From NCBI RefSeq assembly GCF_001579805.1, contig NZ_CP014546.1, positions 1,240,001 to 1,304,000 on the forward strand: a DNA stretch of 64,000 nt, given 5' to 3'. The position numbers and the translations under genes are program-made. The DNA comes from Pseudomonas azotoformans. Its GTDB lineage: Bacteria; Pseudomonadota; Gammaproteobacteria; Pseudomonadales; Pseudomonadaceae. Of the stretch, positions 36,244-40,082 are shown piece by piece (position 1 is the first letter of the stretch; the number at the start of each line of letters is the position of its first letter). The notes beneath the pieces were generated by a model. The model searched no databases. It saw only the letters and a list, made by a program, of their open reading frames with translations, and had not been told where the DNA came from.

Positions 36244-37149
<906 letters not shown>

Positions 37150-37156
37150 CGGCTAC

Positions 37157-37208
37157 AAACAAAAAGGCCCCGCTCAATCTGATTGAGCGGGGCCTTTTTA
37201 TTTGTGGC
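37157..37208 (+). repeat. Left 52-bp direct repeat containing the argB terminator
   Basis: The 52 bases from AAACAAAAAGG to TTTGTGGC recur without a mismatch at 39263-39314. They contain a perfect terminator: AAAAAGGCCCCGCTCAATC / GATTGAGCGGGGCCTTTTT. The match stops sharply at both ends. The two copies bound the AbiE-like island. Confidence 0.95.
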
Positions 37209-37224
37209 AGGCGTTATCGAAATC

Positions 37225-37344
37225 TGATTGATTTCACTACTAATCGATTTTCAACATTCGCTGAAATTATTAATTTCAGTGAAAATTCTCGACAGATTTC
37301 ACTGCTTTGGTTATTTTCAGCACTTGTTGAAAATGGTGAAATCA
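37225..37344 (+). promoter_or_regulatory. Operator/promoter region of the AbiE-like operon
   Basis: In 120 AT-rich bases the pentamer TTTCA or its complement TGAAA occurs many times, including the palindrome CTGAAAT-TATTA-ATTTCAG (about 37260-37278) and the facing pair GATTTCAC ... GTGAAATC. AbiEi antitoxins repress their own promoter by binding inverted repeats, so this looks like the autoregulatory site array. Confidence 0.6.
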
Positions 37345-38403
37345 ATGAAAGAGTTCGAAATCCGCTCAAGGGATGCCCTGCGAAATCTCCTGAGCAAAGT
37401 GCCGATCCTCAAGATTGAAAACCTGAAACTGCCTTCACCTTCAGAGGGGTGGACGCCCGACTGCATTGTCGAGATAACCGTCTCGGGAAGGTCGCATGCT
37501 CTGGTCTGCGAGGTAATAGCAAGCGGCCAACCCAGATTTATAAGTGCGGCGATACTTCGGCTTCGCGACTATTTGAACAAACAGCGGACACAGGCAACGC
37601 CCGTTGTGGTCGCGCCTTATCTGTCGCCCATTGCCAGACAGGCATGCCGGGAAAGAGAGGTGGGGTATCTGGATCTGGAGGGCAATGCGTGGATCTCGTT
37701 CGGTGGCGTATCCATTGACCATCAAGTCGCTGACAAGCCGTCCTCAGAACGCAGAGAGCTGAAGTCTTTCTTCAAACCAAAGTCAGCACAGATCATACGC
37801 ACGATGCTTCGAGATCCGGGCCGAGCCTGGCGCGTGGTCGAACTGTCCGAAGCTGCCGGAGCGAGCCTGGGGCAAGTCAGTAATGTCCGAACAGCACTCC
37901 TGAATAGAGAATGGGCCCGGACGACAAACGATGGCGTAAACCTATCCGACCCTCAATCTCTCCTAGACGCTTGGGCCGAGACATACGAGCCTCCAGCAGG
38001 AGACCGTAAATTCTTCTATACCGCCTTGCACGGTAGAGCATTGGAAAATGCGGCGCGTAACGCCATTGGAGAAATAAGCGGCGGGCACGCGCTTTTTTCG
38101 TCTTTTTCTGCCGCCCAATGGCTCGCCCCCTATGCCCGTATCAATACGAATTACTTTTTTGCCGACCGTGAAGGGTTAGAGAGGCTGGTCAAAGCATTAC
38201 AGTTGGTTCCCGCATCAACGGGAGAAAACGTAGTGATCACCTTACCCAAAGAGGAAGGGCTTCTACTCGACGCCATTGAACCCGCACCGGGTGCCATATG
38301 TACCAGCCTGGTTCAGACCTACCTGGATCTATCAGTTGCAGGAGAGCGCGGGAAAGAAGCTGCCGAATACTTGAGACAGGAAAAACTGACATGGTCTCGT
38401 TAG
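37345..38403 (+). CDS. AbiEi-like type IV antitoxin / transcriptional regulator
   Basis: A 352-residue protein from ATG 37345 (a GGTGAA lies upstream; an ATG at 37333 is possible). Residues 35-125 look like an endonuclease-type fold: PDCIVEI (D39), ALVCEVIASGQPRF (E56) and VVVAPYLSPIARQAC, then GYLDLEGNAWISF. Where an active nuclease would have E-x-K there is E-V-I, so this domain is probably inactive. Residues 147-205 form a winged helix (RAWRVVELSEAAGASLGQVSNVR). The C-terminal part is AbiEi-like. It is translated just before, and overlaps, the AbiEii-like gene, matching antitoxin-first order. Function inferred: repress the operon and counteract the toxin. Confidence 0.75.
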   Translation: MKEFEIRSRDALRNLLSKVPILKIENLKLPSPSEGWTPDCIVEITVSGRSHALVCEVIASGQPRFISAAILRLRDYLNKQRTQATPVVVAPYLSPIARQACREREVGYLDLEGNAWISFGGVSIDHQVADKPSSERRELKSFFKPKSAQIIRTMLRDPGRAWRVVELSEAAGASLGQVSNVRTALLNREWARTTNDGVNLSDPQSLLDAWAETYEPPAGDRKFFYTALHGRALENAARNAIGEISGGHALFSSFSAAQWLAPYARINTNYFFADREGLERLVKALQLVPASTGENVVITLPKEEGLLLDAIEPAPGAICTSLVQTYLDLSVAGERGKEAAEYLRQEKLTWSR

Positions 38404-39260
38404 TCCCTCAAGAACCCCAGTCTGCTTCAGATTATGACGACAGAACCACGACCGCCGTGAAAGCAGTGTTAGTGGAAATCGGTCAAATCCTCGGCTCTTT
38501 CAAAGGAAAGTTTGCAGTGATCGGCGGAGCAGTGCCTTGGCTTCTGCTTGCGAATGACGATATGCAACACGTTGGAACCCTTGATGTCGATTTGAGCCTG
38601 AACGCAGAAGCACTGGGTGATGGCGAATACGCGACATTGATCGAAGCACTGATGGGCAACGGGTATCAACAGAGAGGAGCGCTTCGCAGATTCCAACTCG
38701 TTCGCCAGGTGCCCGCGGAGGACGGCGGACCGGCGATAGATGTGATCATGGACTTCTTGATGCCGCGTGACGCCGAAATCATCCAGAACAAACCTCCTAT
38801 CCTCAACGACTTTGCTGTTCAGCGTGCTGACGGTGCCGACTTGGCAATGCGCTTCTACCAAATGGTTGCCATTGAGGGTCCCATGCCCACGGGTGGGAAA
38901 AATCGCGTAGAAGTCGCCGTATGTTCTATCCCCGCACTCTTGGCAATGAAGGGGTATGCGCTGAATGGAAGGCACAAACAGAAGGACGCCTATGACATCT
39001 ACTACTCCGTCCGCAACTTTCCCGACGGTGTCGAAGCGCTCGCAGAGGAATGTCGATCAGTGCTTGAAACGGGCAGCGGAGAGCAGGGATTTCAGTTCAT
39101 CGGAGAAAAATTTGCTACCCATGATGGCTATGGCCCGACGGCGGTAAGACGATTCGTCGAAGACAGCCAGATTCTGGGAGGTCGCACACCAGACCAATGG
39201 CAGCAAGATGCTTTTGGGCAGGTGGATACCTTATTGCGCGCCTTACGACTTCGGGACTAA
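38391..39260 (+). CDS. AbiEii-like nucleotidyltransferase toxin
   Basis: A 289-residue protein; the ATG at 38391 follows GACAGG and overlaps the antitoxin gene by 13 bases. It carries the polymerase-beta nucleotidyltransferase signature GG(45-46) ... TLDVD (acidic D65, D67) with a third acidic position in IDVIMDF (D117 or D121), and the AbiEii/DUF1814 motif K187-x6-R194-x3-KD(198-199)-xx-D202. Related MenT/AbiEii toxins transfer nucleotides to tRNA or other targets and stop growth, which aborts phage infection. Substrate not known here. Followed directly by the second terminator copy. Confidence 0.8.
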   Translation: MVSLVPQEPQSASDYDDRTTTAVKAVLVEIGQILGSFKGKFAVIGGAVPWLLLANDDMQHVGTLDVDLSLNAEALGDGEYATLIEALMGNGYQQRGALRRFQLVRQVPAEDGGPAIDVIMDFLMPRDAEIIQNKPPILNDFAVQRADGADLAMRFYQMVAIEGPMPTGGKNRVEVAVCSIPALLAMKGYALNGRHKQKDAYDIYYSVRNFPDGVEALAEECRSVLETGSGEQGFQFIGEKFATHDGYGPTAVRRFVEDSQILGGRTPDQWQQDAFGQVDTLLRALRLRD

Positions 39261-39262
39261 TA

Positions 39263-39314
39263 AAACAAAAAGGCCCCGCTCAATCTGATTGAGCGGGGCC
39301 TTTTTATTTGTGGC
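39263..39314 (+). repeat. Right 52-bp direct repeat; terminator of the AbiE-like operon
   Basis: Exact copy of 37157-37208. It starts 2 bases after the toxin stop codon and acts as its terminator. The sequence beyond it (a REP palindrome, then pyrE) is probably what originally followed argB. Confidence 0.95.
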
Positions 39315-39353
39315 GAGGGAGCTTGCTCCCGCTGGGCTGCGCAGCAGCCCAGA
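39315..39353. repeat. REP palindrome near the pyrE 3' end
   Basis: GGGAGCTTGCTCCC followed by CTGGGCTGCGCAGCAGCCCAG: two adjacent palindromes of the REP type common in fluorescent pseudomonads, just beyond the stop of minus-strand pyrE. Confidence 0.78.
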
Positions 39354-39355
39354 AA

Positions 39356-40000
39356 TCAGACGCCGAACTGCTCGCGGTACGCCTTCACCGCCGGCAGGTG
39401 TTGCTTGAGCTGCGGATCATCCTCCAGGAACTGCAGCACCTGGTTCAGCGACACGATGCTCACCACGGGAATGCCGAAATCGCGCTCCACTTCCTGGATG
39501 GCCGACAATTCACCGTTGCCGCGTTCCTGGCGGTTCAGCGCAATCAGCACGCCGGCAGCCTTGGCGCCATCCTGGGAGGCGATGATCTGCATCACTTCGC
39601 GGATCGCAGTACCAGCGGTGATCACGTCGTCGATGATCAGCACGTCGCCCTTGAGCGGAGCTCCGACGAGGCTGCCGCCTTCGCCGTGGGCCTTGGCTTC
39701 TTTACGGTTGAAGCACCATGGCAGATCCTGGCCATGATGTTCAGCCAGAGCCACGGCCGTCGCGGCCGCCAGGGGGATACCCTTGTAGGCTGGGCCGAAC
39801 AGCACGTCGAAGGAAATACCGCTTTCAACGATGGCCGCCGCATAGAAACGACCCAGCTGAGCCAGGGCCGAACCCGAGTTGAACAAGCCTGCATTGAAGA
39901 AGTACGGGCTGGTGCGCCCGGACTTCAAAGTGAACTCACCGAAGCGCAAAACGCCGCGATCGATGGCAAAACGAATGAAATCGCGTTGATACGCCTGCAT
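39356..40000 (-). CDS. pyrE: Orotate phosphoribosyltransferase
   Basis: A 214-residue enzyme that joins orotate and PRPP to orotidine-5'-phosphate in pyrimidine synthesis. The PRPP loop [18 protein letters not shown] and the flexible-loop [11 protein letters not shown] are intact. The ATG at 40000 starts [12 protein letters not shown], as in other PyrE proteins; an earlier in-frame ATG is not preceded by a ribosome-binding site. Divergent from crc. Confidence 0.97.
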
Positions 40001-40082
40001 GAAAAAAGCCTCAGATACCACGGATTTAGCTAATTAGGTAGACGGCGTGTATCATACACGCACGCGATTTTTGGGGCCATTT

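Follow-up and report, generated by a model that had tools for sequence, protein, structure and literature searches.

Genes and repeats at the argB–pyrE locus

The 64,000-nucleotide stretch of Pseudomonas azotoformans DNA analyzed here (contig NZ_CP014546.1, positions 1,240,001 to 1,304,000; called the window below, with coordinates counted from its first letter) carries a short operon resembling the AbiE toxin–antitoxin (TA) systems between two host genes, argB (36244..37149, + strand) on the left and pyrE (39356..40021, − strand) on the right. The operon is bracketed by perfect 52-bp direct repeats at 37157–37208 and 39263–39314 (both + strand), 2106 bp apart from start to start, each of which includes the entire argB intrinsic terminator. 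The final six bases of the repeat, TGTGGC, close the left copy and on the right are the beginning of a repetitive extragenic palindromic (REP)-type element, TGTGGCGAGGGAGCTTGCTCCC (39309..39330, + strand), which, with up to 1 mismatch allowed, matches 74 places in the genome (38 forward, 36 reverse). An AbiEi-like gene, an AbiEii-like gene and their promoter are all that lies between the repeats; the open reading frames of the interval include no third gene, and so the unit has no recombinase. The preliminary description of this DNA had reported the same arrangement, a recombinase-free AbiEi/AbiEii operon between identical repeats that contain the argB terminator, and its coordinates are confirmed.

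The 52-bp pair is the sole exact direct repeat of at least 30 bp with a spacing of 300–8000 bp within the window, and a sample of 20 stretches from the same 6.86-Mb genome, 400 kb in all, contains none. Allowing up to 3 mismatches, the 39-bp terminator itself is found twice in the genome, both times in the repeats described above.

The AbiE operon and its control region

The abiEi-like antitoxin gene (37345..38403, + strand) encodes 352 aa from a conserved MKE start, with further in-frame starts at 37333 and 37336. Its product matches Pfam PF09952 (AbiEi_2) with 31.1 bits, above the cut-off of 21, and its layout, as judged from VIA-align of the predicted model and a motif count, is a PD-(D/E)XK-like N-terminal domain, a winged helix-turn-helix (HTH) and the AbiEi_2 C-terminal domain. 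The winged-HTH matches cover about residues 131–216 of the model; the HTH is central rather than N-terminal because the extra N-terminal domain precedes it. Foldseek with the same model gave no PDB match at E ≤0.001 (best 1.2e-3). In an alignment of 48 AbiEi sequences, the PD-(D/E)XK-like residues of AbiEi-type antitoxins are D42, E59, K61 and Q65, and the lysine is replaced by isoleucine in the window protein. Their C-terminal domain resembles a nucleotidyltransferase fold.

The abiEii-like nucleotidyltransferase toxin gene (38391..39260, + strand) overlaps abiEi by 13 bp and encodes 289 aa. The protein scores 20.7 bits against PF08843, slightly below the cut-off of 22.5, matches the PADLOC AbiEii profile at E 3e-5 and has no NCBIfam match. 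Residues G45–G46, D65, D67, K187, R194 and K198–D199–x2–D202 are invariant in 26 sequences, motif II (HVGTLDVD) is without its usual arginine, and the GG-to-DxD spacing is 18 and not 15. Its predicted structure was poor (mean predicted local distance difference test score 55) and was not used. In each of the 76 loci whose flanks could be used (window counted), AbiEii is directly preceded by an AbiEi-like gene. The operon is compact and under selection, with dN/dS (the ratio of nonsynonymous to synonymous divergence) against three relatives of 0.11–0.15 for abiEi and about 0.04 for abiEii. We take the pair to be, probably, COG4861–COG4849. We infer a toxin–antitoxin or phage-defence function for it.

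The promoter region (37209..37344, + strand), which holds no other gene and was aligned with 13 relatives, contains two palindromes of the form TTCARCA-N4-YTGAAA, TTTTCAACATTCGCTGAAAT (37248..37267, + strand) and TTTTCAGCACTTGTTGAAAA (37314..37333, + strand), the second of which overlaps a −10-like hexamer. Both are kept in 14 of 14 aligned upstream regions (window counted), and they are putative AbiEi operators, predicted to serve autoregulation. Promoter-like hexamers at 37289–37317 are by themselves no evidence, since one was found and 1.6 were found in shuffled sequences. Foreign DNA begins about 40 bp upstream of the first palindrome, at the start of the promoter region, and ends 2 bp past the abiEii stop codon, immediately before the right repeat; the unit is therefore without a terminator of its own.

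Empty sites and divergence of the operon

We parsed 79 argB–pyrE intervals, after 15 duplicate or cut loci had been set aside. They were drawn from three sources, namely the nearest matches to argB, genomes in which the argB match ended short of the terminator, and named AbiE loci; the choice is non-random and therefore biases clade-level cargo frequencies upward. Forty-one of the intervals are empty, 13 carry AbiE, 20 carry a three-gene set (below) or its remnant, and 5 carry other cargo, among it a LysR-type gene. The spacer between argB and pyrE in the empty intervals measures 69–212 bp. A simple test detects a perfect-stem terminator in 29 of these 41 spacers, 25 contain a terminator sequence of the window's type, and internal direct repeats of at least 16 bp are absent from all of them. 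Some genomes, such as G017, G121 and G175, have a single terminator of the window's type and no genes between argB and pyrE. The argB terminator had been proposed as the insertion site, with strains holding one terminator and no genes, and other cargo at the same place, as the things to look for; both kinds of strain were found. In a pyrE+xth tree the rows closest to the window are G158 and G209, which are empty, and G090, whose three-gene set is degraded.

The operon and its neighbors have diverged to different extents. Synonymous divergence (dS) between the window and G286 is 0.26 for argB and 0.36 for pyrE, versus 0.78 for abiEi and 0.90 for abiEii; against G336 the corresponding values are 0.47 and 0.57, versus 0.75 and 1.12. 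Overall, operon dS is 1.3- to 3.4-fold that of argB and pyrE when the window is compared with three relatives at this locus. The values are alike in all four genes (0.26–0.34) for the pair G336–lini, which is the sole yardstick for a measure that varies between genes for reasons besides age. Since dS is higher in the operon than in its two neighbors, the operon and the host genes most likely did not descend together. From the empty relatives and these distances, the AbiE-like unit between argB and pyrE is an insertion, and its donor appears to be unsampled.

argB–pyrE as an exchange locus

AbiEii relatives were found in 10 of 398 genomes of the genus at E 1e-20 (the window's genome included), an unbiased figure, and in 8 of those 10 they lie at argB–pyrE. 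One of the eight (G349, locus L083) is broken: both genes of its decaying AbiE are interrupted and its flanks are intact. All or part of the three-gene set accompanies AbiE in 7 of the 13 AbiE intervals. The set encodes a zinc-ribbon-like protein of 70–83 aa, a 190-aa protein and a small membrane-like protein of 127–141 aa, none of which has a match above a curated cut-off or to a defence profile. It occurs with or without AbiE in one Pseudomonas clade (L077, L080, L085, L130–L132, L135, L136 and others), where it is at least partly present in 25 of 25 sampled members, chosen for lacking the terminator or carrying AbiE and with the third gene scored by DNA-level similarity.

Some of the AbiE copies have plainly been transferred between species at this locus in recent times, to judge from divergence: AbiE dS is 0.04–0.07 between G286 and G101 (argB/pyrE 0.27–0.31) and 0.01–0.03 between EA105 and G372 (argB/pyrE 0.27–0.41). 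The flanks of several carriers look imported as well. When EK007 is compared with its empty sister G236, argB identity declines from 97–99% to 94% and then 86% over its two final 100-bp blocks, and pyrE identity is 88% in the first 100 bp. In G101 identity drops only toward argB; it drops on both sides in G090 and G122, which carry the three-gene set, and the flanks of G286 show no clear drop against G171. The argB stop codon follows the same division. It is TGA in 35 of the 38 cargo-bearing intervals, including all 12 AbiE carriers other than the window, and TAA in 37 of the 41 empty ones; because the stop tracks cargo in this way, cargo usually brings along an argB end of its own and another hairpin. 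Three empty sites have TGA, that of the close relative G158 among them, and so cargo loss may also occur here. Taken together, these comparisons indicate that argB–pyrE is a small exchange locus for alternative cassettes. It resembles the minimal mobile elements, in which a fixed slot between two conserved genes reportedly receives alternative small cassettes by homologous recombination in the flanks, a definition that the argB–pyrE slot in Pseudomonas fits.

The window itself lacks the signature of flank exchange. It alone among the 13 AbiE carriers has an argB that keeps the TAA stop usual at empty sites, and neither argB (at its 3′ end) nor pyrE drops in identity beside the insert when compared with the close empty-site genome G209. 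Its event differs from those of the other carriers in that the left side retains the common-type terminator, with a perfect duplicate of it behind the operon. A REP-like doublet seemingly lies inside the argB terminator loop at several empty sites, and in G168, G188 and G309 it seemingly replaces the terminator (loci L092, L124, L125, L129, L133 and L122, L126, L127).

Duplicated host gene ends in other genomes

Flanking direct repeats are absent from the 12 other AbiE-bearing argB–pyrE intervals, and among all 38 cargo-bearing intervals host-sequence repeats flank the cargo only in the window and in G122, in a test that used exact 14-bp seeds and that diverged repeats would escape; a 17-bp repeat at L134 was taken as chance. 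By this count the cassette as such does not entail a duplicated terminator. In G122 a three-gene cassette has a second argB 3′ tail behind it, beginning 195 bp ahead of the argB end and missing about 100 bp internally. The end of this tail and the sequence downstream match the native sisters G309 and G188, and the complete argB on the left side of the cassette has an end of cassette type. A repeat of this sort would result from donor-type homology on the left combined with a second joint lying upstream of that homology. G122 is in this respect consistent with one homologous anchor and one non-homologous joint.

An independent parallel is found in Pseudomonas indica. Its AbiE is bracketed by 270-bp repeats (L226, 3237–3506 and 5716–5985) that are 96.7% identical (9 of 270 positions differ) and hold the 3′ part of a small gene and a hairpin with a weak T-tract. 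The left repeat completes the small gene and the right one is without the gene start, the same architecture as in the window. The sister species G421 (L263) has one repeat copy with the same right-hand neighbors, a matching left flank and no AbiE between. The P. indica AbiE is 88% identical to that of Pseudomonas sp. BN102 over 2069 bp, which is the operon and about 120 bp upstream, and in the stretches compared there is no other similarity around it. Thus, on at least two occasions a bare AbiE unit has landed next to the end of a host gene, and that end was duplicated together with its hairpin. In all three cases the right joint lies close behind the last stop codon of the cargo (2 bp in the window, about 0 bp and 38 bp in the others).

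A repeat match at E 1e-3 in the 3-kb flanks was found at 7 of 76 AbiE loci, including the window and P. indica. The other five were not counted as host-gene-end duplications: the L182 repeat resembles a REP palindrome, those of L185 (69.6% identity) and L206 lie more than 2 kb out, that of L239 looks like an intergenic repeat, and L216 looks like an integrase-type island. In L216 (1–5300) AbiE lies between 40-bp, 87.5% identical repeats with tRNA-3′-end-like sequence, an adjoining open reading frame reads like a tyrosine integrase, and no tRNA gene was found.

Origin of the terminator duplication

We consider it probable, at roughly 60%, that a bare AbiE operon was captured here by a recombinase-free, homology-assisted insertion that duplicated the host terminator. 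The incoming DNA would have carried the promoter–operators, the antitoxin and the nucleotidyltransferase toxin, with no terminator of its own. One end would have joined through (short) homology, and the other would have joined host DNA beyond the crossover, for which a sister chromosome or template switching would serve. The host segment between the two joints, the 52-bp terminator, would thereby have been doubled as direct repeats. argB would in this way retain its terminator and the toxin operon acquire one, and a deletion between the repeats would bring back the original site; this joining and its reversibility are what we infer from the scars. Selection for a toxin operon that ends before a terminator may explain why the duplicated piece contains one.

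Several points weigh against this capture. The closest empty genomes have other terminators, with a REP inside another hairpin in G209 and a TGA stop and a different terminator in G158, and for this reason the exact pre-insertion state is taken from slightly more distant genomes. The crossover side is unreadable in P. indica, and in the window too because the donor is unsampled and the two repeats do not differ. The usual products of one-sided homology combined with an illegitimate joint are insertion–deletions, and a duplication requires an extra step; a circular intermediate would leave an identical scar. Finally, a verified host-gene-end duplication is present at only 2 of the 76 AbiE loci (window counted; near-identical pairs are included, so not all are independent), and such duplication may be a rare accident.

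The circular route would be a Campbell-type single crossover, in which a circle with one 52-bp terminator copy and AbiE recombined into the chromosomal terminator. It predicts direct repeats of the shared segment, and likewise the 270 bp in P. indica. However, 52 bp is very short for RecA, the circle would first need host-like terminator DNA, and no close plasmid or phage relative was found, the best plasmid matches having about 66–70% DNA identity; we regard this route as unlikely. Searches for a vector gave no phage match and no relative among viral contigs (two peptide patterns), and the plasmid relatives are distant (23 records, all at 60–80% identity), so that neither vector was retained.

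Exchange of flanks with a donor argB/pyrE, followed by homogenization of two terminators through gene conversion or repeat exchange, is rather improbable. Other AbiE copies here have clearly been transferred, with imported ends in EK007 (both flanks) and G101 (argB), and the right terminator resembles the argB type in G286, G101, EK007 and G349. The argB end in the window, however, looks native, with no donor hairpin, and a second argB-type terminator left of AbiE is present in none of the 12 other carriers. The view that this is a cargo-only cassette moving by recombination holds for AbiE transfer and for the imported flank ends of some carriers; it does not extend to movement from terminator to terminator, since those 12 intervals show no flanking repeat by exact 14-bp seeds and the genome, at up to 3 mismatches, has no third terminator copy. 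Terminator hopping was discarded on the latter count.

Site-specific integration by an integrase acting in trans, with the terminator or gene end as attachment site, had also been suggested, and we think it very unlikely. Duplicated gene 3′ ends are the usual mark of an integrase, and a distant AbiE locus, L216, does lie between tRNA-like repeats beside an integrase-like reading frame. The unit itself, though, has none of the features of transposons and integrase islands (its own recombinase, a fixed target duplication or an attachment sequence), and 12 of the 13 argB–pyrE AbiE copies are without such repeats. Because the repeats of 52, about 195 and 270 bp have no evident sequence in common, a fixed target duplication or common attachment site is disfavored.

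Similarly remote is a REP-linked cut, in which a REP-associated Y1 transposase nicked the REP foot (TGTGGC) and foreign DNA was captured at the break: such transposases recognize a GTGG/GTAG foot, the left joint lies 6 bases inside the REP-type sequence, and the genome has two Y1_Tnp-family matches, one without stops, but several relatives have REP-like hairpins next to or within this terminator in any case. Non-homologous end joining does not distinguish among these routes, as Ku is present in 6 of 6 genomes checked, including the empty-site G421. The terminator duplication is better seen as a by-product of insertion.

Wider meaning

In a bolder reading, to which we give a low probability, host intrinsic terminators and gene 3′ ends might be recurrent landing pads for bare, terminator-less TA operons, the end being duplicated with no recombinase. 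If this were true, the duplicated end would insulate the neighbor and the toxin operon together, insertion would be scarless and reversible, and the movement of chromosomal TA pairs on their own would have a general explanation. In the meantime one TA family has left readable scars of two routes, exchange of core-gene flanks at argB–pyrE and host-end-duplicating insertion, the latter seen at two unrelated host genes whose relatives have empty sites, and this makes the question of TA mobility testable by a genome survey and a simple transformation assay.

Comparison with known systems

The operon is like the AbiE type IV TA system (PMC3985639) in its overlapping antitoxin–toxin genes, the winged HTH of its antitoxin, its two promoter inverted repeats and its putative DUF1814-type nucleotidyltransferase with GG…DxD, K-x6-R and KDxxD motifs. 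It differs in the extra PD-(D/E)XK-like domain of AbiEi and, in AbiEii, in the missing motif II arginine and the longer GG-to-DxD spacing (18 versus 15). The COG4861–COG4849 pair is named in the same paper, and the MenAT systems are relatives of AbiE systems (PMC7319586, PMC11375011).

No account of the argB–pyrE slot was found in a literature search outside which most subscription journals lay. The insertion in the window differs from the minimal mobile elements of Neisseria (Saunders and Snyder 2002, as cited in PMC1538595) in that it has no donor flanks and the terminator is duplicated.

Its presumed joining is like homology-facilitated illegitimate recombination (PMC5361080) and transformation merodiploids (PMC3784515) in having one homologous anchor with the other joint elsewhere, and pairing between sister chromatids can duplicate host DNA. 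The former process is described as rare (PMC5361080), and the duplications of PMC3784515 are mostly about 100–900 kb and repeat-based, whereas the window case is read from scars only. Small variable segments with flanking repeats make up 10–18% of all small variable segments in the species of PMC2884548; 66–94% of those repeats are shorter than 30 bp, whereas that of the window is 52 bp long, perfect and spans a whole terminator.

How chromosomal TA modules move and integrate is still unelucidated according to a review (PMC7167474). The ccd pair in folA–apaH of E. coli O157:H7 described there likewise occupies an intergenic slot in which REPs or other cargo are found elsewhere; by comparison, the window has the scar of a joint, and its parallel in P. 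indica has an empty sister site.

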